The notes under the pieces were generated by a model that did no database searches, had not been told where the DNA came from, and worked only from the letters and a program-made list of their open reading frames with translations. This document shows positions 4,557 to 48,059 of a stretch of DNA of 49,216 nucleotides, in pieces (within the stretch, counting starts at the first letter, position 1; each line of letters opens with the position of its first letter). Position numbers and translations under genes: made by a program. The stretch comes from an uncultured Bacteroidales bacterium (lineage in GTDB: Bacteria > Bacteroidota > Bacteroidia > Bacteroidales > Bacteroidaceae), in the NCBI GenBank assembly GCA_902763865.1, contig CACWTR010000018.1, positions 1 through 49,216 of the forward strand, given 5' to 3'.

Positions 4557-6206
4557 TTATGTTTTCTGCGGCTTCAGGCCCAGTTCTTTTGCCTTTTCGA
4601 GCATGAACTGGAAGGCGGCGGCATGGTCGTTGGGGATGACGGAGTCCCAGATGGCATCCTTGACGGCTTGCTTCAGGATGCCTATCTCGCGGCAAGGCTT
4701 GAGGCCGAAGGTCTCCATGATTTCCTCGCCAGTAATGGGGTTGTGCCAGGTGCGGTAGTTGTCGCGTGCCTGGAGGTCGGTGAGTTTTTCGCGGACAAGC
4801 TGGAAGTTATCGAGGAAGCGTCGTTTCTTCTCGCGGTTCTTGCTGGTGATGTCTGCCTCGCAGAGTCGCATCAGGTCGTCGATGTCCTCGCCGGCCTCGA
4901 AGAGGAGGCGGCGCACGGCGCTGTCCGTCACGACGTCGTCGGCAATGGCAATGGGCCGCATGTGCAGGCCGACGAGTTTCTCCACGTAGGCCATGCGCTC
5001 GTCTGTCGGCAGTTTCATGCGGCGGAAGAGCGGCGCCACCATCTTCTGTCCGATGTAGTTGTGGTTGTGGAACGTCCAGCCGGCCTGGTTGTCCCATCGC
5101 TTGCTCCTTGGCTTGCCAATGTCGTGCAGGAGGGCGGCCCAGCGCAAGAAGAGGCCAGCCCCAGCCTCACCCCCGACCCCTCTCCCGTGGGAGAGGGGAG
5201 TGGGCTGCTGGTATCTCCCCTCTCCTGCGGGAGAGGGGTCGGGGGTGAGGCTAATGTTATCCAGCACCTCGAGGGTGTGGTAGAAGTTGTCCTTGTGTGC
5301 GCGGCCATTGCGTGTTTCTACGCCTTCCAAGGCTGCCACTTCCGGCAGGATGATGGGCAGCAGCCCGCTGCGGCTCAGCTCGATGAAACCGATGCTGGGC
5401 GCGGGGGTCATCATTATCTTGTTCAGTTCGTCGATGATGCGTTCCTGCGAGATGATTTTGATGCGCTCGGCATTGCGGCGGAGTGCTTCCTGAGTCTCGT
5501 CATCAATCTGGAAGCGCAGCTGTGTGGCGAAGCGGATGCAGCGCATCATGCGCAGGGGGTCGTCGCTGAAGGTGATGTCGGGGTCGAGTGGCGTGGCGAT
5601 GATGCCGTCCTCCAGGTCGAGCAGGCCGTCGAAGAGGTCGATGAACTCGCCGTAGCGTTCCTTGTTGAGGCAGAAGGCCAGGGCGTTGATGGTGAAGTCA
5701 CGGCGGTGCAGGTCGTCGTCGAGCGTGCCGTTCTCTACGATAGGCTTACGGCTGTTCCGCTGGTAGCTCTCGCGTCGTGCCCCCACGAATTCTACCTCCT
5801 GATCGTGCCATTTGAGTTGTGCGGTGCCGAAGTTGCGGAAGATGCTGACGTGAGCGCCTCGTCCCAAGTTCTTGGCAAGGGCTTGGGCGAGACGAATGCC
5901 GGGCCCCGGCTCTGGCCTCACCCCCGACCCCTCTCCCGTGGGAGAGGGGAGTGGGCAGCTGTTATCTCCCCTCTCTTGCGGGAGAGGGGTCGGGGGGGAG
6001 GCTACCACGCAGTCAATATCCTTCGACGGGCGCTCCAGGATGATGTCGCGGACGTAGCCGCCAACGACGTAGCATTCCAGTCCCAGCGTGTCGGCCTTCT
6101 CGCCGATGCGCCGCAACAGCGGATTGTCGATGAGGGGGAGTGGGTCAGTCTGCCGCTCGCGCCCACGGAAGTTGTCGTATTCCTGTATGGCTTCCCGTAT
6201 GGTCAT
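4557..6206 (-). CDS. cca: CCA-adding tRNA nucleotidyltransferase with two palindromic-element inserts
   Basis: A 549-residue enzyme that adds or repairs the 3' CCA of tRNAs. The class II nucleotidyltransferase head is present: GGYVRD (49-54), catalytic DID (63-65), RRDFTINALAF, and DDPLRMMRCIRFA. An HD domain follows (HKDNFYHTLEVLDNIS ... ALLHDIGKPRS). Two Pro/Gly-rich segments absent from the family interrupt it. Residues about 69-98 lie only three residues after the catalytic DID strand, and residues about 319-348 lie just before the HD motif. They are translations of two nearly identical 86-bp palindromic elements (5916-6001 and 5165-5250), read in two different frames. All family motifs remain in frame, so the enzyme is presumably active despite about 60 extra residues. 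Confidence 0.93.
   Translation of the reverse strand: MTIREAIQEYDNFRGRERQTDPLPLIDNPLLRRIGEKADTLGLECYVVGGYVRDIILERPSKDIDCVVASPPTPLPQERGDNSCPLPSPTGEGSGVRPEPGPGIRLAQALAKNLGRGAHVSIFRNFGTAQLKWHDQEVEFVGARRESYQRNSRKPIVENGTLDDDLHRRDFTINALAFCLNKERYGEFIDLFDGLLDLEDGIIATPLDPDITFSDDPLRMMRCIRFATQLRFQIDDETQEALRRNAERIKIISQERIIDELNKIMMTPAPSIGFIELSRSGLLPIILPEVAALEGVETRNGRAHKDNFYHTLEVLDNISLTPDPSPAGEGRYQQPTPLSHGRGVGGEAGAGLFLRWAALLHDIGKPRSKRWDNQAGWTFHNHNYIGQKMVAPLFRRMKLPTDERMAYVEKLVGLHMRPIAIADDVVTDSAVRRLLFEAGEDIDDLMRLCEADITSKNREKKRRFLDNFQLVREKLTDLQARDNYRTWHNPITGEEIMETFGLKPCREIGILKQAVKDAIWDSVIPNDHAAAFQFMLEKAKELGLKPQKT
5165..5250. repeat. 86-bp T-shaped palindromic element, copy 1 (inside cca)
   Basis: Architecture 12+22+18+22+12. 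The outer stem is CCTCACCCCCGA (5165-5176) with TCGGGGGTGAGG (5239-5250). Two inner hairpins sit at 5177-5198 (10-bp stem, 2-base loop) and 5217-5238, separated by an 18-base linker. It is translated on the minus strand within cca without a stop or net frameshift (LTPDPSPAGEG...). Confidence 0.9.
5916..6001. repeat. 86-bp T-shaped palindromic element, copy 2 (inside cca)
   Basis: Same length and design as the copy at 5165-5250: outer arms 5916-5927/5990-6001 with one mismatch, hairpins 5928-5949 and 5968-5989, and an 18-base linker nearly identical to copy 1. It lies in the same orientation but in a different codon phase of cca, giving a different peptide (SPPTPLPQERG...). Confidence 0.9.
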
Positions 6207-11852: not shown

Positions 11853-12632
11853 TCAGCTTCCTGCTTGTGCCAGTGGGGAATGCGGGGTGCCTGCGATGTA
11901 TTCCTTCAGATAGAATGGTTCGAAGTAGGCCACGTCCTGCTTCTGCCCCAGGTGGAGGGAGCGTTCTGCCAGGGGGAACATCCATTTTGCCAGGGGCACG
12001 ATGCCTTCCAGGAAGTGGGCGTTGGGGTGTCGGATGACGCTTTGGCACTTTGCGGCTCCGTCGCCGAAGAACCAGACGGGGTGCTCTTCGAGGTAGGGCA
12101 GATAGGTGTCTGCCTCGACGATGTCAGCTCCGATGGGGCGCACTTCGCGGAGGGAACGGTCATAGACGGCGCTATAGACTTCCATTCTCCGTGCATCTAT
12201 CATGGGTACGAGCAGGGGTTCAGCCTCCCCCGTCTCTTCCGAGGGAAAGGTGAACAGTCCGTCATTCTCCCCATCGCGGTTCTTCCCTCCTTTGGAGGGG
12301 TCTGGGGAGGCTTTCAGCAGCACGGGCACGCAGAGCAGCTTCAGCGTCGGCACGGCGAGCAGCGGCAGGTCGCGCCCGTAGCAGACGCCTTTTGCCAGCG
12401 AGACGCCGATGCGCAGTCCTGTGTAGCTGCCGGGGCCTTCGCTCACGGCCACGGCATCGACGGGGATGGCGTGGCTGTTGGCAAACGAGAGGGCTTCCTC
12501 GACAAACACTCCGCACACGGCGGCGTGGTTCGGTCCGTCCAGGTCTTCCTTGTGGAAGATGAGGCTGCCGTTCTCGCTCAAGGCTACGGAGCAGGCCTTG
12601 GTACTTGTCTCAATATGTAGGATGCATGACAT
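11853..12632 (-). CDS. tsaB: tRNA threonylcarbamoyladenosine biosynthesis protein TsaB, with palindromic insert
   Basis: A 259-residue ASKHA-fold partner of TsaD in t6A formation on tRNAs. The family start is MSCILHIETSTKACSVALS (chosen at 12632; an in-frame ATG exists at 12644). VSEGPGSYTGLRIGVSLAKG and PLLVPMIDARRMEVYSAVYD are hallmark segments. Between them, residues about 108-137 are an atypical stretch (SPDPSKGGKNRDG... TFPSEETGEAEP) that translates the palindromic element at 12223-12311. The C-terminus beyond PFYLKEYIAG is a short extension. Confidence 0.92.
   Translation of the reverse strand: MSCILHIETSTKACSVALSENGSLIFHKEDLDGPNHAAVCGVFVEEALSFANSHAIPVDAVAVSEGPGSYTGLRIGVSLAKGVCYGRDLPLLAVPTLKLLCVPVLLKASPDPSKGGKNRDGENDGLFTFPSEETGEAEPLLVPMIDARRMEVYSAVYDRSLREVRPIGADIVEADTYLPYLEEHPVWFFGDGAAKCQSVIRHPNAHFLEGIVPLAKWMFPLAERSLHLGQKQDVAYFEPFYLKEYIAGTPHSPLAQAGS
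12223..12311. repeat. Palindromic element inside tsaB
   Basis: An 89-bp segment with outer arms GCCTCCCC (12223-12230) and GGGGAGGC (12304-12311), a hairpin TCCCTCCTTTGGAGGGG near the right end, and a degenerate one (TCTTCCGAGGGA) near the left. Sequence and layout match the cca copies and the terminal repeats of the element at 15299-15780. It is open in the tsaB frame. Confidence 0.75.
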
Positions 12633-14380: not shown

Positions 14381-15259
14381 ATGATACTATCAATGACCGG
14401 ATACGGCAAGGCCTCAGCCGAATTCCAAGGAAAGAAAATAATAGCAGAGGTGAAGTCGCTCAACAGCAAGGCACTCGATCTCTCCACGCGTGTGGCCCCC
14501 GCCTACCGCGAAAAGGAGATGGAGGTGCGGGCCATGATAACTCAGGCCCTGGAGCGCGGAAAGGTGGAGTTCAATCTCTGGACAGAACAGCAGGACCAGA
14601 CAGGAGCCTGTCCCATCAACGGCGAACTGGCGGCAGACTACTTCCGGCAGATGCAGGACATATCGGCCCGGTTCGGCATCCCCGCACCCGCCGACTACTG
14701 GCCCACACTGCTGCGCATGCCCGACGTGCTCTCGCACAGTGAAGTGCAGCAGGAACTCAGCGACGAGGAGTGGAACGTGGCACGCAACGTCGCAGAGCAG
14801 GCCATCGCCCATCTCGTGGCTTTCCGCCAGCAGGAGGGCGAGGCACTGCAACGCAAGTTCGAAGAGAAGCTGGACAGCATCGCAGCACTGCTCGCCGCCA
14901 TCGAGCCCTACGAGAAACAGCGCGTGGAGAAGATACGGCAGCGCATCGTCGAGGGACTCACCGCCATCCCCGACGTGCAGTACGACAAGAATCGGCTCGA
15001 ACAGGAAATGATCTACTACATCGAGAAACTGGACATCAACGAGGAGAAGCAGCGACTGGCAAACCACCTTCGCTACTTCCGCCAGACCATGCAGGACGGC
15101 CACGGACAGGGCAAGAAGCTTGGCTTCATCGCACAGGAGATGGGACGCGAAATCAACACCACCGGCAGCAAAAGCAACCTGGCCGAGATGCAGAACATCG
15201 TAGTCCGCATGAAGGACGAACTGGAACAGATAAAGGAACAGGTGCTGAACGTCATGTAG
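14381..15259 (+). CDS. yicC: YicC-family endoribonuclease
   Basis: A 292-residue protein with the conserved start MILSMTGYGKASAEFQGKKI and C-terminal YicC/DUF1732 blocks (EEKQRLANHLRYFRQTMQ, GKKLGFIAQEMGREINTTGS, QNIVVRMKDELEQIKEQVLN). E. coli YicC is reported to act as an endoribonuclease. The start at 14381 is set by family alignment, downstream of the promoter. In Bacteroidales it normally precedes gmk directly; here a mobile element separates them. Confidence 0.92.
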   Translation: MILSMTGYGKASAEFQGKKIIAEVKSLNSKALDLSTRVAPAYREKEMEVRAMITQALERGKVEFNLWTEQQDQTGACPINGELAADYFRQMQDISARFGIPAPADYWPTLLRMPDVLSHSEVQQELSDEEWNVARNVAEQAIAHLVAFRQQEGEALQRKFEEKLDSIAALLAAIEPYEKQRVEKIRQRIVEGLTAIPDVQYDKNRLEQEMIYYIEKLDINEEKQRLANHLRYFRQTMQDGHGQGKKLGFIAQEMGREINTTGSKSNLAEMQNIVVRMKDELEQIKEQVLNVM

Positions 15260-15262
15260 AAA

Positions 15263-15298
15263 GCCTCCCTGTCCCCTCCAGGGGATGGGGGACGAGAA
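15263..15298. repeat. Degenerate partial palindromic element
   Basis: Directly after the yicC stop lies a decayed half-copy (GCCTCCCTGT, hairpin CCCCTCCAGGGG, then GGGGGAC) of the same family, abutting the left end of the nuclease-bearing element. It suggests repeated insertion at this spot. Confidence 0.6.
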
Positions 15299-15780
15299 GC
15301 CTCCCCCGTCCCCTCCAAAGGAGGGGGGAACGGAATATAGAGAAATAACGGTGGGTGAACCGGTAGTAAGATGAAGCGTGGGTACGAGACGGCAAATTGT
15401 GCGGCATATAGTCTGCTGCGTCGGTTCTCGCAGGAAAACCGCAGGAATCCGACGGAGGCAGAAAGCATACTGTGGAGTGCGCTTCGGGCTTCTCAGTGCG
15501 GGACTCGCTTCAGGCGGCAACACATTATCGGAGAGTACATAGCAGATTTCGTATGCTTGTCGAAAAAACTTATCGTAGAAGTTGATGGAGCATATCATAA
15601 TAGAGCCGCACAAGTAGTTTCGGATGAACAGAGAACAGAAGACTTAATGCGGCTGGGTTTTCAGGTGATGAGGTTCAAGAATGAAGAAATAATAGGAGAT
15701 ATAGACAAAGTCATGGAAAGAATAAACAAAGAGCTTAACACCTCGCCGTTCACCCCTCCTTTGGAGGGGACGGGGGAGGC
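15299..15780 (+). mobile_element. 482-bp palindromic element carrying a DUF559 nuclease
   Basis: Terminal inverted repeats of 35 bp (15299-15333 and 15746-15780, 34 of 35 matching) bound the unit. Each end has an outer arm (GCCTCCCCCGT / ACGGGGGAGGC) and an inner hairpin (CCCCTCC-AAA-GGAGGGG at 15310-15326; CCCCTCC-TTT-GGAGGGG at 15753-15769). This is the design of the 86-bp elements in cca, with the linker replaced by a complete DUF559 endonuclease frame (from 15371). The right end has no stop and reads into gmk. No transposase is present; mobility by a nuclease-stimulated (homing-like) route is inference. Confidence 0.8.
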
Positions 15781-16351
15781 CAGGCTCCTTATCGTCTCTG
15801 CCCCCTCGGGGAGCGGGAAGAGTACCATCGTCCACTATCTGATGGACGAGCATCCGGAGTTCAGACTGGCCTTCAGCGTGAGTGCCACCAGCCGCCCGCC
15901 GCGAGGCAAAGAAAAGGATAGAGTGGATTACTACTTCCTCTCCGACGAAGAGTTTCGCCGTCACATCGAGGCCGGCGACTTCCTCGAGTACGAGGAGGTC
16001 TATGGCGGAAGCCTCTACGGAACACTCAAGCAGCAGGTGGATGAGAAGCTGGCCAGGGGCATGAACGTCGTCTTCGATGTCGATGTCAAAGGCGGCGTCA
16101 ACATCAAGCGCTACTATGGCGAGAGAGCCCTGAGCATCTTCATCCAGCCCCCGTCCGTGGAGGCGTTGCGACAGCGGCTCATAGGCCGCGGCACCGACGA
16201 AATGGAAAAGATAGAGCAGCGACTGGCAAAGGCAGAGTACGAGATGACGTTTGCACCGCAGTTCGACCGCATCCTCGTCAACGACGACCTCGAGACGGCC
16301 AAGCGCGAGGCAGTGGCAATGCTGCGTGATTTCTTAATTCTTAATTCATAA
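15371..16351 (+). CDS. gmk: DUF559 endonuclease fused in frame to guanylate kinase
   Basis: A 326-residue frame. Residues about 15-118 are a DUF559/Vsr-like PD-(D/E)xK nuclease: NPTEAESILW, FRRQHIIGEYIADFVC with Asp59, IVEVDGAYH with Glu70/Asp72, LGFQVMRFKNEEI. Residues 119-137 are the translated right palindrome (SPFTPPLEGTGEA). Residues 138-326 are complete guanylate kinase, which phosphorylates GMP to GDP: P-loop APSGSGKST (144-152), SVSATSRPPRGKE, VDYYFLS, FLEYEEVYGG.LYGT, VVFDVDVKGG. The native gmk start is gone, so this presumably essential kinase must be made as a fusion or from an internal codon (in-frame ATG at 15713, TTG at 15761). An in-frame stop at 15356 bounds the fusion start. 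The last residues (LILNS) come from a short AT repeat. Confidence 0.85.
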   Translation: MKRGYETANCAAYSLLRRFSQENRRNPTEAESILWSALRASQCGTRFRRQHIIGEYIADFVCLSKKLIVEVDGAYHNRAAQVVSDEQRTEDLMRLGFQVMRFKNEEIIGDIDKVMERINKELNTSPFTPPLEGTGEARLLIVSAPSGSGKSTIVHYLMDEHPEFRLAFSVSATSRPPRGKEKDRVDYYFLSDEEFRRHIEAGDFLEYEEVYGGSLYGTLKQQVDEKLARGMNVVFDVDVKGGVNIKRYYGERALSIFIQPPSVEALRQRLIGRGTDEMEKIEQRLAKAEYEMTFAPQFDRILVNDDLETAKREAVAMLRDFLILNS

Positions 16352-26909: not shown

Positions 26910-28100
26910 TTATGCTGTAGCTAAATGTTTGGCAATTTCGTTGAGTGCCACAAAGCGATAACGCTGGGCTGTCGCAGGGATAGGCGTGTAACACAAATGG
27001 CGTGCCTCTGCCTTGCGGCGCAAGGTCTCTTCGACGGCTGACTGGATGCTGGCATCAAGGAAAGCTTGCTCGGTGGGTTGCAATAGCAACAGTTGCCCCT
27101 TCGAACATGCCTCGAAATAGACGCCGCCGGGTTTGTAGTAGCGTTCATGGGGCGAGCCTTCCTTGGGGAACCCGTCGCCAAGAAGAACAACCATCGGGTA
27201 GCCTTGCTCCCGCAAAGCCCGGGCAATGTGTTGCTCGCCCTTGCTGATGGCTGCCGTATAAGTGACCGTCCCGTCGTGAGCAGCCGCCATTGCCGTCCGC
27301 AACCGTTCCTTCACCTGATCGTCAGTAGCGCTGCGCGACATTTCCACCGCCTGTCGGTCAGGCCAGTCAAGGAGGAAATGGTTGCCCATCGAGGTAAACG
27401 ACAGGCCGGCGACCTCCGTGCGTCTGTGCAGACGGAAGAGGTCAGGGTTCCTGGTCTTGAGCCAAAGGCGTCGAGGATTGTCTTTTACATAGTCAATCAT
27501 CCGGCGCAACTGGCCGGGCGCATGAAGGATGCGCTCATGGTAATAGGCAGGGTCCTGCTGCCAGATGCTGCCCCTGCCCGCAAAAATGCGGGCAAAATGC
27601 ACCAGAGCCTTCTCTCCCTCTCCATGTACCCCAGCGGCGTTTTTGCCTTCAGGGAAAGTCCCTTCCCCGTGCACTTTAGCGGCGTTTTCGCCGCTACAAA
27701 AATACTCCTCCTTGTAAACCTTCGTGCATGCGCTCTTGAATCCACGCACCACCGCCCCGATGCTTTGCGGCAGCGGCTCGAGCACTTGAATCACAAAATG
27801 GACATGGTCGGGCATCACCATCTGTGTCAGCACCTTCAGGGCATACCCCTTCCGTTCGTAGAACTGTGCCAGCCCGCCCAGCATCTTGCACACCTGCCGA
27901 CCGAAAGGATTGAGCTTGACGAAAGCCTTTTCTGCGCTCTCACCCGCCAGAACACCAAACAGCGGATACCGTTCCTCCACAGGCAACGTGAAGTGATAGA
28001 TGGCACGCCCCCGGTAGTCCCATCCGTTTTCACGATGGTGCCGCGTGGTATCGACCGGACGCCATTTCCCCTGATCCTTATCCATTGCCTGTGTGCTCAT
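26910..28100 (-). CDS. REP-associated Y1 transposase (RAYT-like) with C-terminal Rossmann-like domain
   Basis: A 396-residue protein. The N-terminal half is a Y1/HUH transposase of the RAYT type: [23 protein letters not shown] motif [20 protein letters not shown], then [14 protein letters not shown] (candidate catalytic Tyr) and [12 protein letters not shown]. Between them, about 40 residues ([26 protein letters not shown]) are an imperfect internal duplication translating REP-like palindromes. The C-terminal 170 residues ([49 protein letters not shown]) resemble a DprA/SLOG-like Rossmann domain. RAYTs process REP hairpins. It sits between hflX and fumarase. Confidence 0.85.
27576..27696. repeat. 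REP-like palindromes within the transposase gene
   Basis: A perfect palindrome TAGCGGCG-tttt-CGCCGCTA at 27677-27696, a decayed second copy around 27631-27648 (CAGCGGCGTTTTTGCC), and GCCCGC-aaaaat-GCGGGC at 27576-27593. All stay in frame. They sit in a hydrophilic insertion of the transposase. Confidence 0.7.
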
Positions 28101-41008: not shown

Positions 41009-43474
41009 TTATACTCTTTGTGTGATTGTTACTGCTGTTTGTATATCTGCTATTTGAGCTCCAGTTGCAATAACTGCTTGTCTCATTTCATTGTATACAG
41101 GAGCGTTATTATTAGGATCTCCAATTGTTAAAATAGCCGTAAAAGGAACCCCATCTGTCGAATATTGCATGGTTGTTCTGGACTCATATTCTATTTCAAG
41201 GAACCATGGTCCTTGATTCATAACAGACTTGAATTCCCTTTCATATACTTTAATGGGATTCCATTTTTGTTCTGTTTCCACCAATTGCCACTCATAGAGA
41301 TGCCCGATAGATTCACTTTCTCTATCATCCCTATAAAGTGATTTTAGTTGTGACTTTTTTGTCCCATCTTTTTGTTGCATTCTTAAAGCAACATGAACAT
41401 TCTCTCGGATCATTTCATCTCCATATGTATAATCAATTGCAGGTGTACTTACTAAAGTCAGTTTAACCTTACCTCTACAACGTCCATCCTTTATCAACGA
41501 TTGAGGCCATCCAAAACTAAAAGACAGTATTTTCTTGTTTTTAATACGTCCAGCAAATACAAGAGTTATAGAATGTTCATCTCCATTTAACATCTGTGAG
41601 GAAGAGGATGGAACCCCATAACCAATAGAGTCTTTTAATAAATTTTTATATGCACGATTCTTCATAAATTCAGGCACTTCAGAATTGTGGATTAATAAGG
41701 CCATCAATGTTTCTCTGGAAGTATTGCCCTCAATTGCATTATCTAAGCAAGCTAAGGTTTTGGAAATTATGGGGGTAGAAAAACTAGTTCCTGCATTTGA
41801 GTATATTTTGGAGTTTATATCTACAGATAACAACCCCGTCCCATCTGAAGATGAATGACACCCACGTCCGCTCGCATATACGACATCAGGTTTAACCATT
41901 ATAGATGAACCTTTTCCTTTACAAGTATAGCTAGCAAGCCCAACAAAGTCGGGATTTAACGCTCCAACACTTATGTTTCTCACGCTTTCAGCTGGAGCAT
42001 AGATAATATCATTCGTTCCGTTATTTAGTTGATTAATATTTGCAGCAACATCTGTACTCCATTCCGTCCTTATGCCTTTTTTATTTCCCGCTGAAACGAC
42101 AAAAATAACATCATTTTCTTCTGCTATTCTATCTAAGATTTTAGCAAAATCAGAATAATCTGATGCGTTTCTATCTTTCTCGATATTGATACTTAAGTTG
42201 AAGATTCGCGCACCTGTTCTGGCTTTTAGATCTATTACAGCAGATTCTATTTCGCTAAAGAAATCATCAAGTCCGCAAGGGAAACATCTGTTAAAAAGGT
42301 CTTTGTGTTGTAAATCTGGTATAACGCATGCGTCAGCCAGCAAACATCCATCTGATTCTTTACATATTGTTGGGTTTAATGTTGCACCACTGACTAAAAG
42401 GCCTGCAATAAAAGATCCATGTGACTCATTTTTCCACTTAGGAATAATGTTATCCCACTCATCAGATTTCCATAAGTCAAATATATGAGCGATACCACCA
42501 TCCACTACGCCAACCAATGGATAACGTTTATTATCTAAAGGCGTAGGAATTGGAAAAATATCAGTGTGGTCAATGTTAAAAGATGGTATTGTTATTGATT
42601 GAAGCGATGGAACCAATCGGATATTTCTTACTAATGGGTGAGATTTTAAGAAATCAATAAAATCCACATATCTCATTACATCAGAGCATGATTCCACCTC
42701 CATTTCTTTGCGCTGTGCACAATGATTTAGAGACACCAGTGAATTAGGTAGATTGGTGATTTTACAAACAATCGTAGGGGTGGTACTGTTGATGCGAGAT
42801 TTAAAAACTCTTATTCCTGCAATTTGTTCCAATCCTCTTTTGAAAGACTCGTGCATTTTTAACTGCTCTTTGTCTATTGTATCCCATAATTGTTCTGCAA
42901 CAGGTTCCTCAAATAAATCCACATATATTATACTCCCATCTGATTTAAGCCATTCCGAGATGTCATTATTAGTGGAAATAATCTTATCAGTTTCTGAATA
43001 TAAAGAAAAGCTCTCTATGGCTCCCAATTCGGTTCTCCATACAGACGGTTTTATCTCTATTTCTCCATTTGTCTTACGATGGGTACGGATATGTGTTTCC
43101 GCGTTGTCATTTATCAGACTTGCTAGCTTTATTAGGGCCTCTGCATTAGATTTGATAATGAGTTCTCCTCTAAACGTTCCTCCAACAACAGAGCAACTGT
43201 TACGTTCGGTTAATATCTTACTAACTGGTCTATGGCTTTTTGCCATGGCAGCTCGGATTAATCTTACTTTTACATACCCTATCCTTGAAAAGGGGTTATC
43301 GCTAATTGATTTCCCAATTTCCTTGATTTGAGAAACAACATTGGTTTTATGGCTTGCAAATAGCAAGTTGTTATTTGCATAAAAGTCTTTTCTTATAACA
43401 GGTGTTTTCCTTACAGGTACATCTGTGATAAAACTGTCGCTATTTAAAACGACTTGTACAGGTCCATTTGCCAT
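41009..43474 (-). CDS. Subtilisin-like serine protease (S8), IetS-like
   Basis: An 821-residue S8 protease. The catalytic triad is complete: Asp325 in YPLVGVVDGGIAHIFD, His352 in NESHGSFIAGLLVSG, Ser564 in NAGTSFSTPIISKTL; the oxyanion Asn464 lies in VVSAGNKKG. It has a long N-terminal extension (1-315) without signal peptide, so it acts in the cytoplasm. It starts 2 bases after the AAA gene. AAA-ATPase plus cytoplasmic S8 protease is the composition of IetAS, described as an antiphage system and, on Agrobacterium Ti plasmids, as a stability module. The DNA is markedly AT-richer than the core, in line with transfer. Activation mode is unknown. Confidence 0.88.
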   Translation of the reverse strand: MANGPVQVVLNSDSFITDVPVRKTPVIRKDFYANNNLLFASHKTNVVSQIKEIGKSISDNPFSRIGYVKVRLIRAAMAKSHRPVSKILTERNSCSVVGGTFRGELIIKSNAEALIKLASLINDNAETHIRTHRKTNGEIEIKPSVWRTELGAIESFSLYSETDKIISTNNDISEWLKSDGSIIYVDLFEEPVAEQLWDTIDKEQLKMHESFKRGLEQIAGIRVFKSRINSTTPTIVCKITNLPNSLVSLNHCAQRKEMEVESCSDVMRYVDFIDFLKSHPLVRNIRLVPSLQSITIPSFNIDHTDIFPIPTPLDNKRYPLVGVVDGGIAHIFDLWKSDEWDNIIPKWKNESHGSFIAGLLVSGATLNPTICKESDGCLLADACVIPDLQHKDLFNRCFPCGLDDFFSEIESAVIDLKARTGARIFNLSINIEKDRNASDYSDFAKILDRIAEENDVIFVVSAGNKKGIRTEWSTDVAANINQLNNGTNDIIYAPAESVRNISVGALNPDFVGLASYTCKGKGSSIMVKPDVVYASGRGCHSSSDGTGLLSVDINSKIYSNAGTSFSTPIISKTLACLDNAIEGNTSRETLMALLIHNSEVPEFMKNRAYKNLLKDSIGYGVPSSSSQMLNGDEHSITLVFAGRIKNKKILSFSFGWPQSLIKDGRCRGKVKLTLVSTPAIDYTYGDEMIRENVHVALRMQQKDGTKKSQLKSLYRDDRESESIGHLYEWQLVETEQKWNPIKVYEREFKSVMNQGPWFLEIEYESRTTMQYSTDGVPFTAILTIGDPNNNAPVYNEMRQAVIATGAQIADIQTAVTITQRV

Positions 43475-43476
43475 AT

Positions 43477-44655
43477 TTATACTTTTTTAAATTTTGAAAT
43501 CTGTTTGCTAAGAGACGAAGGCGTAATGCATAAAACTTCTGCAATATCTTTTTGCCTCATACTGATTCCTGCTTCCATTAATTTAATACAAACCTCGTCA
43601 TTAGGAAGTTCCAAGAGACGTTTAACTTCTTCATTAATGCGACCATTATTCAGCAATGAATATCGACGCATCATATTTATAACGCTCTCTTCCTCGTTTT
43701 TTGAAATAATCTTCATGCGTTTAATCCAATTGGTCAAATTCTCTATGTCTGCACCAGATGCTCCTTGCATACACCAACAGATGAACTTGACATTTGCGTC
43801 AGTAATTGTAATGGGCTTTAAAAAGTGTTCTAATAATTTCATTCTTACCTCGTTTGAAGGTGTCGGAATTTCTATCTGTATATCAAACCGTCGCCAAATA
43901 GCCGGATCTAATAGCTGTTCATGATTTGTGATACCAATGGTAAAACCAATTGAACTACGTTCGTCAAGACATTGCAATAATGTGTTGACAATACGTTTAA
44001 CCTCACCAACTTCTTGTGGATCATCTCTCAATTTCGCAATGGCGTCAAATTCATCTAGCAAAAGAACGCATTTGTAACGATTAGCAAACGAAAACAAATT
44101 ACTGATGTTTCTAGAACTTGTTCCCAAAAAAGAAGAAACTATACCATCTAATTTTGCTGTCACTATGGGTAACCCTACACATTTTGCCATCCATTTGGCC
44201 ATGTGTGTTTTACCAGTACCAGGCTTTCCAAAAATCAGGCAACTTCTAGATGGTTTTGCCTTCATTTGTAATAACAATCCATAGTGAGTCCATTCTAATA
44301 TTACTGAGTTAATGGCATTTCGAATACTATCTTCAAAAAGAGGTTCCTGGACATCTAATTGTTGCGGAAATATCACTTCCAATATCGGAGCCGCAGTTTC
44401 TTTATCCACGGGAATGGGAGTGTTGGGATAAAGTTCTTCTCCAGATACTATAGAAGATACACTTAATTGTTGCGGTTCTATACTTTGATGCTTTTCTGCA
44501 TTCCTAAGAGTGGCTAGTAAAGATTGAGATTCTTTCTCAAACCCATCTTTTTTGAGCGCATTGGCCAAGCGTTCCACTTGATAGAACGCCAGTTCTTTGT
44601 CGCAATTTATAATTGAACGACACAAAGACTGTATAATGCTAAAGTATTTTTTCAT
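43477..44655 (-). CDS. AAA+ ATPase with C-terminal HTH, IetA-like
   Basis: A 392-residue AAA+ protein: N-terminal helical region (1-105), Walker A GKPGTGKT (143-150), Walker B LLLDEFD (198-204), sensor 1 TIGITNHEQ, and paired arginines WRRFDIQIEIP. The last 35 residues (GISMRQKDIAEVLCITPSSL...KQISKF) resemble a helix-turn-helix. It is the partner of the S8 protease, likely sensing a trigger or gating protease activity. The coding strand and AT-rich composition match its partner. An upstream AT-rich gap (44656-44766) holds no gene. Confidence 0.88.
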   Translation of the reverse strand: MKKYFSIIQSLCRSIINCDKELAFYQVERLANALKKDGFEKESQSLLATLRNAEKHQSIEPQQLSVSSIVSGEELYPNTPIPVDKETAAPILEVIFPQQLDVQEPLFEDSIRNAINSVILEWTHYGLLLQMKAKPSRSCLIFGKPGTGKTHMAKWMAKCVGLPIVTAKLDGIVSSFLGTSSRNISNLFSFANRYKCVLLLDEFDAIAKLRDDPQEVGEVKRIVNTLLQCLDERSSIGFTIGITNHEQLLDPAIWRRFDIQIEIPTPSNEVRMKLLEHFLKPITITDANVKFICWCMQGASGADIENLTNWIKRMKIISKNEEESVINMMRRYSLLNNGRINEEVKRLLELPNDEVCIKLMEAGISMRQKDIAEVLCITPSSLSKQISKFKKV

Positions 44656-44766: not shown

Positions 44767-45709
44767 TTATTTTAATACCTTAAACATCTTATTGATACAC
44801 TTTTTCTTTTGTTCCATATTCGGATGCACATAGAGGTTGAGGGTCGTGCTGATATTCGCATGACCAAGAATGACGCTAACGGTCTTGTAGTCACACTGGC
44901 TTTCAATGCATCTTGTGGCAAATGAGTGGCGGAGCCCGTGAAATTTCAAATCCGGTATGCCGAGTTGTTTCAGTAGTTGCTTGTAATAGTTGCGGTAGGT
45001 ACGCGGCTCTGTCGGCTTTGCCTCATTGGTTATCACAAAGTAGTCGTCATTCATCAGCTTCTTTAGGGGACGGATAAGTTTTATAAGTTCCTTGCTGATA
45101 GGTAAGTTCCTTGCTGATAGGTATCTCTCGCATAGAGTTCTTCGTCTTAGGTGTACCGATAACAAGTTCTGTACGCCCTTCGCCACCTTCGATTATATAG
45201 ATGCGTTCTATTGTTCTGTTCACATGGATGGTTTCTGTAGCCAGATCAATATCGCTCCATTTCAAGGCGCATACTTCACCAATGCGCATTCCTGTACTTA
45301 GGCAAATGTAGATACCGAGGTTACGGAATGTGAAGTTATCAGTGGCGTATTGCATCAACTTTTTCTGGTGGCTGATGCTCAATACCTCCAATTCTTTCCT
45401 CTTCTGCTCTGTGGGGTACTTGATGTTCAAGTCGGAGAATTCAAGCAGTTCTGCTTTCACGCCAAACTTCTGAATCATCTTCAAGACAATCAAGATGTCC
45501 TTCACTGTCTTCTGACTCAGTCCGTCGTTCAACTTCTGCAGTGCAAAGGCTTGAACATCGTCCTCTGCTAAATGAGACTTGTCACCAAACGCTGGGAGAA
45601 TGTGATTCTCCAAGATGAGGGCATAAGCAGACATTGTTGACTGCTTTACATACTGCTGCTTATCACTCTTCCAGAGGGCAGCAACTTCTCTAATCGTTTT
45701 CTTATCCAT
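44767..45709 (-). pseudogene. Tyrosine recombinase, out of frame by a 19-bp tandem duplication
   Basis: Two frames make one phage-integrase-family recombinase. The N-terminal frame (45709 to 45047) has the SAM-like core-binding domain and the first catalytic Arg (CLSTGMRIGEVCALKW). The C-terminal frame (to 44767) has HGLRHSFATR, VILGHANISTTLNLY with His and the nucleophilic Tyr. They are separated by a tandem duplication (45084-45102/45103-45121). Removing one 19-bp unit restores ...REIPISKELIKLIRPLKKL... and a protein of about 307 residues. Its position beside convergent hsdS genes with inverted repeats suggests it is the hsdS inversion recombinase rather than the mobile-element integrase. 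Confidence 0.85.
45084..45121. repeat. 19-bp tandem duplication inside the recombinase
   Basis: Two perfect copies of TAAGTTCCTTGCTGATAGG at 45084-45102 and 45103-45121. Because 19 is not a multiple of three, loss or gain of one unit toggles the recombinase frame. Confidence 0.95.
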
Positions 45710-45784
45710 ATTTTTCTTTTTAGAGTTATACCTATTTATATTATAAAGAATAGGCTGTTAGATTAGAGAAACAGAAGCATCAAA

Positions 45785-45812
45785 GTCCCAACTTTGAGAT
45801 TCCCAGAGTTTA
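45785..45812 (+). repeat. Outer inverted repeat, left copy
   Basis: 28 bp, 27 matching the reverse complement of 47993-48020. It encodes the conserved VPTLRFPEF start of both hsdS genes. Confidence 0.9.
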
Positions 45813-46327
45813 GTGGAGGGTGGAAAGAATCTTCTATTGGCAAAGAGTTTGAACTTTATTCAGGTAACACCCCCAGCCGATTGGATAAGGAGAACTTTGT
45901 TGGTAATGTAAATTGGATTACGAGTGGAGAACTGAAAGACCATTATATTGGTGATACTAAAGAAAAAATATCAGAAAGTTCTGCGAAAGAAAACAATCTA
46001 AGGCTGATGCCAGAAGGTACATTTGTGATTGCCATTTATGGTCTTGAAGCAGAAGGTGTCCGCAGTACAGGGTCAATAATAACCAAACAATCTACCATAA
46101 GCCAAGCCTGTATGGCTTTCACCCCTAAAGGTGACATCTCTAATGAATTTCTGTATTCATGGTATAAAAAACATGGAAATGTTATTGGCCTAAGATATGC
46201 ACAAGGAACAAAGCAACAGAATCTTAGTTATGACATTCTTGAAAAGTTCAAAATACGTTATCCGTCACTGAAAGAGCAAGATAAGCTCAATTTTTTCATC
46301 TCATTACTTGATACTCGTATCACTACC

Positions 46328-46354
46328 CAAATCAAGATAATTGAGGACTTGAAA
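46328..46354 (+). repeat. Inner inverted repeat, left copy
   Basis: 27 bp, perfect reverse complement of 47541-47567. It encodes QIKIIEDLK of the central conserved region of HsdS. Confidence 0.92.
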
Positions 46355-46940
46355 CAATTAAGGTTGGCACTGATTGAATTATTATATAGTCAATCGCAAC
46401 CCAATTATAAAATTGGCGATATGATAGTTCAGGTATCAAATCGTAATCGAAATGAAAAGAAATACCCAGTCCTTTCAGTTAATAATCGGCTGGGATTCAT
46501 TGAACAATCAGAACAATTTGAAGACCGCATGGTTGCAAGTGACGACACGTCAAATTACAAAGTTGTCAACTATAATGATTTCGCTTATAACCCAGCCCGA
46601 ATAAATGTTGGTTCTATTGCACGGCTCACGTCGTTTGAAAAAGGTATTGTTAGCCCAATGTATATATGTTTCAACGCTAAGCGACAGCTTTTACCCGAAT
46701 ACCTAGAGTGTTTTTTCGATACACAATATTTCTACCATGAAATGCAGAAACGTTTGGAGGGTAGTGTACGTTTATGTCTTTCGTGGGAGGGAATATGCAA
46801 TATACCTATTACAATACCGACCATAGAGAGGCAAAAAGATGTTAGCAAGCAGATTTCCGTTATCGTTGGTAAAATATCTATAGAAGAACAGTATCTTAAA
46901 ATGCTGGAATCTCAGAAGAAATACATTTTGAGTCAAATGT

Positions 46941-48059
46941 TTATATAAACATCGAGTTTAGTAAGAACCTCTTTTGTTGTTGTAAGTTGTACAAGTAGCT
47001 TTCTTCAGTTCGGATTATTCCCTCCCAAAGTTGCATTACTCGCACAATATGTTTTTGATGTGCAATATCTGGGATAGCGACTTTTAATTGTAGAAATTCC
47101 TCCACACTTATGGAACGTCCATCACGAATACCATAAGTTACAATACGAAGAGAGTTTATGAATTTCTTTGAGGTAAAATAGTATTTCAAGAATGCTGTTG
47201 ACAACTTTTCGTTTGGAACAAGAATCGTATATGCAGGACTGCAAACACCTACCTTGCCTGAATATGCAAATCCTCCTTGAAATGAGCGTAAGTGAATCAC
47301 GTACTGATCTGGGTGAACAATCTTATAGTTTGTAATTGAAGATGCTTCAAACTTGATGTCTATATTCAATTCAATTCGCTCAACCATTCCATACTCCTGA
47401 CTTGCTGAAAGCACGTTTGTATATTGTAGTTTGCTATTCCGTTCATTTGAAATACTAAAGAGGTCTGCGTATTTGTACGTTTGCCAAGATCCTTTTTCTG
47501 AAGGAGTGTACAAACGTTCACAAATGGCATCAGAAAGAGATTTCAAGTCCTCAATTATCTTGATTTGAGTTGAAATTCGCTCGTCTATAAGTATAAGGAA
47601 CTTAATGATTTTAGCTCTTTCTGCTTCACTGCCAAACCTGATTTTTATCTTTTTCAGCATACCACCTGTTATAAGTGGTTGGCCAGAGCCAAATATCAAT
47701 CTGTTCAGATTGCATTTTTGCAGATAATAGAAGATGTATTTATTCCATAATCCTGCATTAACAACCAATGCATTATCAGTAACACCGCAAGGTTCATTGA
47801 CAATTTGCATAGTTCCAGCGTTTGCTCCTACCCTTGCAACTAAAACAATTTCATTGGTATAACTTGCCTTGTCCGTCATTCCCATTTGTCCAGTAGAACC
47901 ATACAGGGCTATACTACCGTTTGTAGGTTTATCTCTCCCAGAAGATATGCCTGGAGCAAGTTCATGAAGTTCAGTATAATTCCATTCTTCCGTAAACTCT
48001 GGAAATCTCAAAGTTGGGACATTAAGGACTTTATCTTGTTTATCTGCTGCCATAATCAT
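46941..48059 (-). CDS. hsdS: Type I restriction-modification specificity subunit HsdS (expressed copy)
   Basis: A 372-residue HsdS: start MIMAADKQDKVLNVPTLRFP, first target-recognition domain (about 20-150), central conserved region DERISTQIKIIEDLKSLSDA, second target-recognition domain (about 190-330), and final conserved helix EESYLYNLQQQKRFLLNSMF. It sets the DNA sequence read by the HsdM/HsdR complex. It overlaps the upstream ORF6N gene by ATGA, so it is translated from the hsdM operon. Confidence 0.9.
   Translation of the reverse strand: MIMAADKQDKVLNVPTLRFPEFTEEWNYTELHELAPGISSGRDKPTNGSIALYGSTGQMGMTDKASYTNEIVLVARVGANAGTMQIVNEPCGVTDNALVVNAGLWNKYIFYYLQKCNLNRLIFGSGQPLITGGMLKKIKIRFGSEAERAKIIKFLILIDERISTQIKIIEDLKSLSDAICERLYTPSEKGSWQTYKYADLFSISNERNSKLQYTNVLSASQEYGMVERIELNIDIKFEASSITNYKIVHPDQYVIHLRSFQGGFAYSGKVGVCSPAYTILVPNEKLSTAFLKYYFTSKKFINSLRIVTYGIRDGRSISVEEFLQLKVAIPDIAHQKHIVRVMQLWEGIIRTEESYLYNLQQQKRFLLNSMFI
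47541..47567 (-). repeat. Inner inverted repeat, right copy
   Basis: Perfect 27-bp partner of 46328-46354, within the expressed hsdS. Confidence 0.92.
47993..48020 (-). repeat. Outer inverted repeat, right copy
   Basis: 28-bp partner of 45785-45812 (one mismatch), 40 bases inside the expressed hsdS start. Confidence 0.9.

Follow-up and report, generated by a model that had tools for sequence, protein, structure and literature searches.

Palindrome-bounded DUF559 nuclease genes as probable mobile elements sheltered in housekeeping genes

In the window, by which we mean the whole analysed stretch of 49,216 nucleotides from an uncultured Bacteroidales bacterium, the guanylate kinase gene gmk lacks its ancestral start codon and is read through from an endonuclease gene that lies between two inverted palindromes. 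How such an arrangement arises, and whether it is confined to this locus, is the question addressed here. A sequence-only reading of the window had taken the arrangement for a selfish, homing-type element lodged on an essential gene, with short palindromes inside cca as its non-autonomous relatives.

A nuclease element between yicC and gmk

The locus comprises the following features.

14381..15259 (+), yicC, directly upstream of gmk in relatives
15258..15292 (+), an extra, related palindrome that adjoins the left end of the element
15299..15333 (+), left terminal palindrome: outer arm GCCTCCCCCGT plus hairpin CCCCTCC-AAA-GGAGGGG
15371..15745 (+), coding region of a DUF559 / Vsr-type nuclease with the motif D-F..E-x-D-G-x-x-H intact
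15746..15780 (+), right terminal palindrome: complements the left one at 34 of 35 positions; its in-frame reading, ..PFTPPLEGTGEA.., leads into gmk
15371..16351 (+), continuous DUF559–gmk open reading frame of 326 amino acids (ATG at 15371, stop at 16351)
ATG 15713 and TTG 15761 (+), among the other in-frame starts of this frame
15779..16351 (+), gmk without its ancestral ATG, the sole gmk match in its own genome (84% complete)

The element spans 482 bp (15299–15780); its inverted 35-nt ends, complementary at 34 of 35 positions (97%) as first described, are separated by 412 nt, and each consists of an outer arm and the hairpin CCCCTCC-AAA-GGAGGGG or its complement. Both domains claimed for the fusion are found by Pfam in the single frame 15371–16351: DUF559 (PF04480; E = 1.4e-33, residues 17–122) and, in the C-terminal part, Guanylate_kin (E = 6e-43, residues 137–314). 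Because ATG 15713 and TTG 15761, the latter within the right hairpin, both lie downstream of the nuclease core, the full-length fusion is not the sole route to GMK. The same genome has two DUF559 matches, and the second locus, beside a gene that we recognized by eye as presumably purH, has another palindrome in the same layout (35-nt ends, 97% complementary).

Relatives show what the junction looks like without the element. A gmk match is present in 34 of 36 congeners (G009 and G031 lack a yicC anchor), and in the 31 with a readable junction, all of them nuclease-free, 29–162 nt separate the end of yicC from the gmk P-loop, against 546 nt in the window and 690 nt in G019. The insertion thus sits where the two genes are normally adjacent, as had been proposed, and the ATG of the relatives (for example, TAGAAATGGGACGC in G008) is absent from the window. 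G019 has the same gmk insertion with more palindromes and a nuclease interrupted by TAG; from this TAG to the P-loop, 88 codons are open and the sole ATG corresponds to window position 15713. The frame behind the dead nuclease indicates that the tail of the element can serve gmk after loss of the nuclease, in agreement with the claim that gmk takes its start codon from the element. G028 has a nuclease-free palindrome in frame after the gmk ATG, and palindromes are also present at the junction in G014 and G038, so that this junction appears, from the genomes compared, to be a repeated landing place. For the insertion shared by the genome of the window (G000) and G019, the comparison of descent with lateral transfer gave an AU P of 0.18.

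Homology and conservation of the nuclease

Among profiles of PDB entries, the nuclease matches 3hrl, a DUF559 protein (E = 1.7e-31), and 3r3p (E = 6.2e-8), which is the homing endonuclease I-Bth0305I, annotated as a ‘mobile intron protein’. A fold search returned the same two entries at E < 0.001 (3r3p, 2.5e-4) and, more weakly, Escherichia coli Vsr (1vsr, 2.5e-2), and the PADLOC ‘homing endonuclease’ model also matches (2e-7). An alignment of 38 domains shows no variation at residues D59, E70, D72, G73 and H76 (window numbering); all 168 rows of the tree described below have the motif, partly by construction because rows without the E-x-D-G anchor were dropped.

For the nuclease, pN/pS lies at 0.10–0.31 in 17 pairs, with dS saturated in most, and for the host flank, where it could be aligned, at 0.07–0.29; constraint in the LeuRS and HisF pairs is generally tighter on the host than on the nuclease. 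The host value of 0.80 for L137/L142 compares different genes and is hence meaningless. These ratios argue for strong purifying selection on the nuclease.

Intein and group I/II intron interpretations were dropped: no HINT self-splicing domain was matched by Pfam in 25 DUF559-bearing proteins, and no catalytic intron RNA was found around the nuclease in nine loci at Rfam gathering thresholds. Carriage by phages was likewise set aside, as the window nuclease matches 5 of 50,697 phage records.

Inverted ends around DUF559 genes

We searched DUF559 genes for flanking inverted palindromes, a check that the sequence-only reading had suggested, comparing the 250 bp before and the 250 bp after each domain for their best inverted match, with a cut-off score of at least 16. 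This score was reached by 39 of 49 DUF559 loci from 28 genomes belonging to the genus or the order (65 matches minus 16 that are partial or near contig ends), compared with 4 of 899 control placements of the same geometry, and by 36 of the 79 scorable among 80 loci from named genomes, compared with 1 of 684; control placements were made for these two sets. Outside Bacteroidota, 8 of 14 plasmid loci from Alphaproteobacteria, Cyanobacteria and Deinococcus, opened from 43 matching records, also reached it. The corresponding figure for the best-scoring order-wide loci, by a long-frame repeat score that left out L155, L156 and L157 (weak partial matches) and L162 (a duplicate), was 8 of 28; ends are often eroded outside the genus. 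Neither an ancient, fixed fusion free of palindromes nor a lack of repeat-flanked DUF559 genes elsewhere was found.

The design of the ends is constant, an outer arm (for example, AGACCC or GCCTC) followed by a CCCCTCCC..GGGAGGGG-like hairpin, with stem and loop variable. Pattern searches of the genome of the window found 23 sites for the core palindrome CCCCTCC-N2-6-GGAGGGG and 2 for the reversed control pattern. The same structures occur in isolates (Dysgonomonas sp. PF1-14, Flavobacterium difficile, Marinilabilia salmonicolor and Pedobacter spp.) and on complete plasmids. Contigs C44 and C59 of the genome of the window carry a palindrome at or near their end, which suggests that the repeats break the assembly.

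Short copies and other loci of the window

Palindrome pairs without a nuclease gene are present at three places in the window.

5163..5252 (−), short pair in frame in cca (site 2), before FLRWAALLHD
5915..6003 (−), short pair in frame in cca (site 1), after KDIDCVV
12222..12312 (−), degenerate short pair in a tsaB-like frame; arms of 34 nt, 71% complementary

The two pairs in cca are about 90 bp long, have arms that are 95% (5163–5252) and 89% (5915–6003) complementary, and share the outer-arm and hairpin design that had been noted for the ends of the gmk element. Congeners G012 and G023 have an ordinary loop of nine amino acids at site 1 and, at site 2, another insert whose translation has, by eye, a palindrome-encoded look. 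The nearest relatives of the cca arms are the arms of the DUF559 elements L077 and L024 (congeners G015 and G003), which fits the view of the short palindromes as non-autonomous relatives. Loop 1 of LeuRS likewise holds nuclease-free palindromic inserts in G143 and in the leuS of the genome of the window. The frame at 12222–12312 is, judged by eye, presumably TsaB. Four further loci of the same genome (L004, L005, L010 and L014) have short palindromes in frame inside proteins that we take, by eye, to be ArgRS, Fmt (methionyl-tRNA formyltransferase), UvrD and ThiD, and in congener G015 palindromes of this kind also seem to lie within an Fmt-like frame next to L085.

The window contains several other loci. 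A RAYT-like Y1_Tnp gene (26910–28100, −), with a Pfam match just below the cut-off, has a 16-nt inverted repeat (26925–26940/28153–28168) and no palindromes of the DUF559 type, for which reason mobilization by a RAYT from the window was rejected. An anti-phage defence pair of the IetAS type was identified by PADLOC at 41009–44655 (−; subtilase IetS, E = 8.3e-239; AAA ATPase IetA, E = 5.5e-154). At 44767–48059, two oppositely oriented HsdS-like specificity genes lie, by eye, beside an integrase, the frame of which is split over two open reading frames (45047–45709 and 44767–45186); the arrangement resembles that of a type I restriction specificity locus that can be inverted.

Residence inside host genes

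The nuclease lies in a long frame (at least 250 or more than 300 amino acids) in 11 of 49 loci that were not chosen for frame length and in 43 of the 80 named loci, four of which run to a contig edge. Most long frames are a host protein with the nuclease as an extra domain, and the hosts are varied.

Aminoacyl-tRNA synthetases: LeuRS (two loops), IleRS, ValRS and MetRS
N-terminal insertion, as in gmk: HisF
C-terminus: IspG and ApgM; also chorismate synthase
Others: RecG, MetH, UvrA, MazG, a sugar epimerase, a DegT aminotransferase and restriction-modification enzymes

Each of the 24 proteins scanned with Pfam has a host domain in addition to DUF559, and in 13 of them the nuclease is clearly bracketed by host domains; host identities beyond these 24 were assigned by eye. 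The patchy presence of the element and its many housekeeping residences agree with the earlier view of a selfish element that lodges on an essential gene.

The synthetases provide the clearest view of an insertion. In LeuRS, the insert sits between ...WIGRSEGAE and IFTTRPDTIFG, and all 14 nuclease-bearing stretches measured in leuS and ileS, which were chosen from long frames, are multiples of three. At E = 1e-60, no match besides the interrupted enzyme was found for LeuRS in six genomes (G038, G055, G344, G390, G155 and G089; 96–100% complete) or for IleRS in four (G274, G212, G241 and G210; 97–100% complete). Empty homologues from the same genus are available for LeuRS (G038, filled, versus G255; G089 versus G290) and IleRS (G274, filled, versus G415). 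In the aligned leuS, ileS and gmk cases, the insert takes the place of between a few and roughly 25 host nucleotides that form a variable loop, and we recognized no duplication of the target site. A structural model of LeuRS (mean pLDDT 74, pTM 0.58) has pLDDT below 50 at residues 294–321 and 436–454, so that the palindromes are predicted to encode low-confidence linkers around a better-predicted nuclease core. The insert apparently stays in the host protein unspliced.

Some residences are less orderly. In G028 (L019/L158, the latter at G028:C18:36000-42500), the N-terminal half of an epimerase stops next to the insert in a different frame, and the sister copy in G023 (L159) is a single frame; at L158, the insert is thus accompanied by damage or by loss of frame. 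The hosts of L241 (HsdM) and L213 (a methyltransferase) are split upstream and not intact. L157 (G011:C1:88000-92500) has a DUF559 remnant of about 40 amino acids in frame before a HAD-like phosphatase, probably a decayed copy. At L094, the DUF559 frame continues into a downstream lipoprotein-like gene and there are no recognizable ends (score 7). Upstream of a DUF559-bearing metH of Rufibacter is a SAM riboswitch (L277, 2468–2574).

Among 52 short-frame elements (inverted-repeat score of at least 14, both flanks present), 22 have same-strand open frames abutting both ends; apart from L029, the yicC–gmk case, these frames are neighbouring genes or shadow frames, and no split host gene was seen by eye among the 22. 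That the palindromes are open in most frames follows from their composition alone: being poor in stops, they ease in-frame landing, little beyond what base composition would predict.

In Cyanobacteria, giant frames contain an in-frame DUF559 domain between palindromes (L242 of Scytolyngbya, L272 of Planktothrix and L351 on a Pseudanabaena plasmid), and that of L242 also has an Eco57I-type methylase domain. These three loci show the in-frame habit outside Bacteroidota.

Inheritance and movement

Across 36 elements, similarity of the arms tracks similarity of the nucleases (Mantel r = 0.41; 0 of 2,000 permutations as high). Arm similarity is 0.38 for similar nucleases in different genomes (27 pairs), 0.25 for different elements within one genome (25 pairs) and 0.20 for dissimilar nucleases (288 pairs). 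Because shared descent contributes to this correlation, it demonstrates co-transmission and not recognition.

On a nuclease tree of 168 rows, a set enriched for long frames by the choice of rows, the distribution of host genes takes 40 changes to explain (minimum 20; 76.7 on average after shuffling of the labels). The tree has few columns, many weak forks and a bootstrap that is not settled; changes forced by well-supported branches number at least three for leuS loop 1, three for leuS loop 2, two for ileS and two for metH. Duplicates were left out, as were L155–L157 and five rows without the E-x-D-G anchor (L087, L109, L132, L134 and L227). Among 130 close nuclease pairs, 74 share a flanking gene and 56 share none, with flanks compared over at most 3 kb and less at locus ends; unshared flanks include those of L040/L089 in two genomes and of L137/L142 in two genes of G084. 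Copies have therefore been both inherited and moved to unrelated sites. The recG (five rows) and hisF (three rows) lineages each form one clade at one site, and some residences seem to be old and inherited. The repeated change of host gene, as reconstructed on the tree, would be more like transposition than allelic homing. The label ‘homing-type’ in the sequence-only reading therefore survives in part: homology to a homing endonuclease stands, but a fixed site for each lineage does not, as the host gene changes repeatedly.

A proposed mechanism and its alternatives

We consider it probable, at roughly 0.7, that these are widespread small mobile elements, each a DUF559 nuclease gene between inverted REP-like palindromes, that are sheltered in frame in indispensable genes; the three hosts that are not intact leave this estimate unchanged. 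From the comparison of loci and genomes we infer that the nuclease drives their movement. The DUF559 protein, a PD-(D/E)XK nuclease of the Vsr / I-Bth0305I type, would cut or nick DNA, probably directed by a palindrome; hairpins formed by single strands would suit a Vsr-type nickase. Host repair would then copy the element into the break. New copies might survive between genes or, within genes, mostly when they are in frame, where a tolerant loop or the end of the gene would be a tolerated landing spot. Once there, the indispensable host gene would shelter the element, as frame-breaking deletions would harm the cell; at gmk, the harm would come from removal of the start codon. Short copies would be internal deletions that are mobilized in trans.

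The palindromes could instead be moved by another activity, such as a Y1/RAYT transposase or template switching during replication, with DUF559 as cargo that might act in repair or in defence against phages. RAYT transposases are known partners of REP palindromes in other bacteria, and the window itself has the weak Y1_Tnp match at 26910–28100. That gene, however, is not bounded by these palindromes, the gene that recurs between them in several phyla is DUF559, and arms and nuclease co-vary; we regard this alternative as unlikely. A strictly site-specific homing endonuclease gene, with one allelic site per lineage and palindromes as part of its target, would account for the homology to I-Bth0305I, for the single-site clades in recG and hisF and for the repeated hits on leuS loop 1. 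It is harder to reconcile with host genes that change repeatedly, even between different genes of one genome, and with empty homologues that lack palindromes at the very sites where these surround the nuclease, and we think it improbable.

Could the nuclease be an adaptive accessory domain that essential enzymes have recruited, as a domesticated fusion? It is kept in frame under apparent purifying selection, as in recG of flavobacteria and hisF of Pedobacter. The hosts, however, are unrelated and have no common function, presence within genera is patchy, the same LeuRS loop holds nuclease-free palindromic inserts (in G143 and in the leuS of the genome of the window), and in G019 the nuclease is broken yet gmk is open, all of which makes general domestication very improbable. 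An artefact of assembly or binning might be suspected because the window and many of its relatives come from fragmented genomes and two contigs end at or near a palindrome; the same structures in named isolates and complete plasmids contradict this reading, to which we assign almost no weight.

We therefore favour the mobile, palindrome-bounded nuclease element. A broader claim, to which we give somewhat less than even odds, is that DUF559 nucleases are an unrecognized mobilizing enzyme of REP-like and protein-coding palindromes in many phyla, with essential proteins as their lasting, unspliced homes. The elements connect three subjects that have hitherto been treated apart: the unassigned DUF559 family, repeats in the form of GC-rich palindromes, and odd insertions found in housekeeping enzymes. 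If the proposal is correct, a nuclease domain rides for long periods inside LeuRS, IleRS or RecG without splicing, selfish DNA is a direct source of new protein domains, and bacterial palindromes have a testable mobilizer.

Relation to known systems

In fungal mitochondrial genes, homing endonuclease genes of families other than DUF559 are fused in frame to their hosts, and in yeast mitochondria the GC clusters are GC-rich mobile palindromes in coding sequence. To our knowledge, the fungal fusions are not bounded by palindromes in the manner of the DUF559 elements.

We found no description of a palindrome-bounded DUF559 element in the open-access full-text literature, the range of our search (subscription papers and preprints lie beyond it). 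The accessible portions of PMC10969869, PMC3733652, PMC2229807, PMC12907096 and PMC11878797 contain no description of one; PMC12907096, in its accessible part, concerns a Vsr-like protein with DUF559 from Caulobacter. In other bacteria, REP palindromes, which include GTAG and CGTC types, are linked to RAYT transposases (PMC3733652). Like these REP/REPIN–RAYT systems (REPtrons), the DUF559 elements have inverted hairpin palindromes with an outer foot, form short copies and flank an enzyme gene. Unlike REPtrons, they encode a PD-(D/E)XK enzyme and not a Y1/HuH enzyme (Pfam finds no Y1 domain in the frame 15371–16351), their arms have AGACC/GCCTC-like feet by eye and no GTAG foot, and they are frequently in frame in housekeeping genes.

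Rickettsia palindromic elements (RPEs) are, in the available part of their description, about 150 bp long, lie in frame in protein genes that have no relation to one another and seem to be retained in the product, with no enzyme named there (PMC10969869). They resemble the DUF559 elements in that palindromes lie in frame inside unrelated genes (here cca and leuS), and the short copies are as free of an enzyme as an RPE; the longer form, 482 bp with a nuclease, is what differs, and by description RPEs are set apart from DUF559 elements.

With I-Bth0305I (PDB 3r3p) and other Vsr-like intron nucleases, the elements share a homologous catalytic domain, but no intron or intein was found around DUF559 and DUF559 lineages change their host gene; unlike homing endonuclease genes in general, they have no fixed target site per lineage, though some clades keep one. 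They resemble inteins with homing endonucleases in placing a nuclease in frame inside essential enzymes, and differ in that no splicing domain was found and the insert appears to remain in the protein. Terminal inverted repeats are a feature that they have in common with insertion sequences and MITEs. Because the DUF559 elements share features with REPtrons, RPEs and homing genes, yet depart from each in a defining feature, they are best read, on the sequences compared here, as a new class of mobile element.
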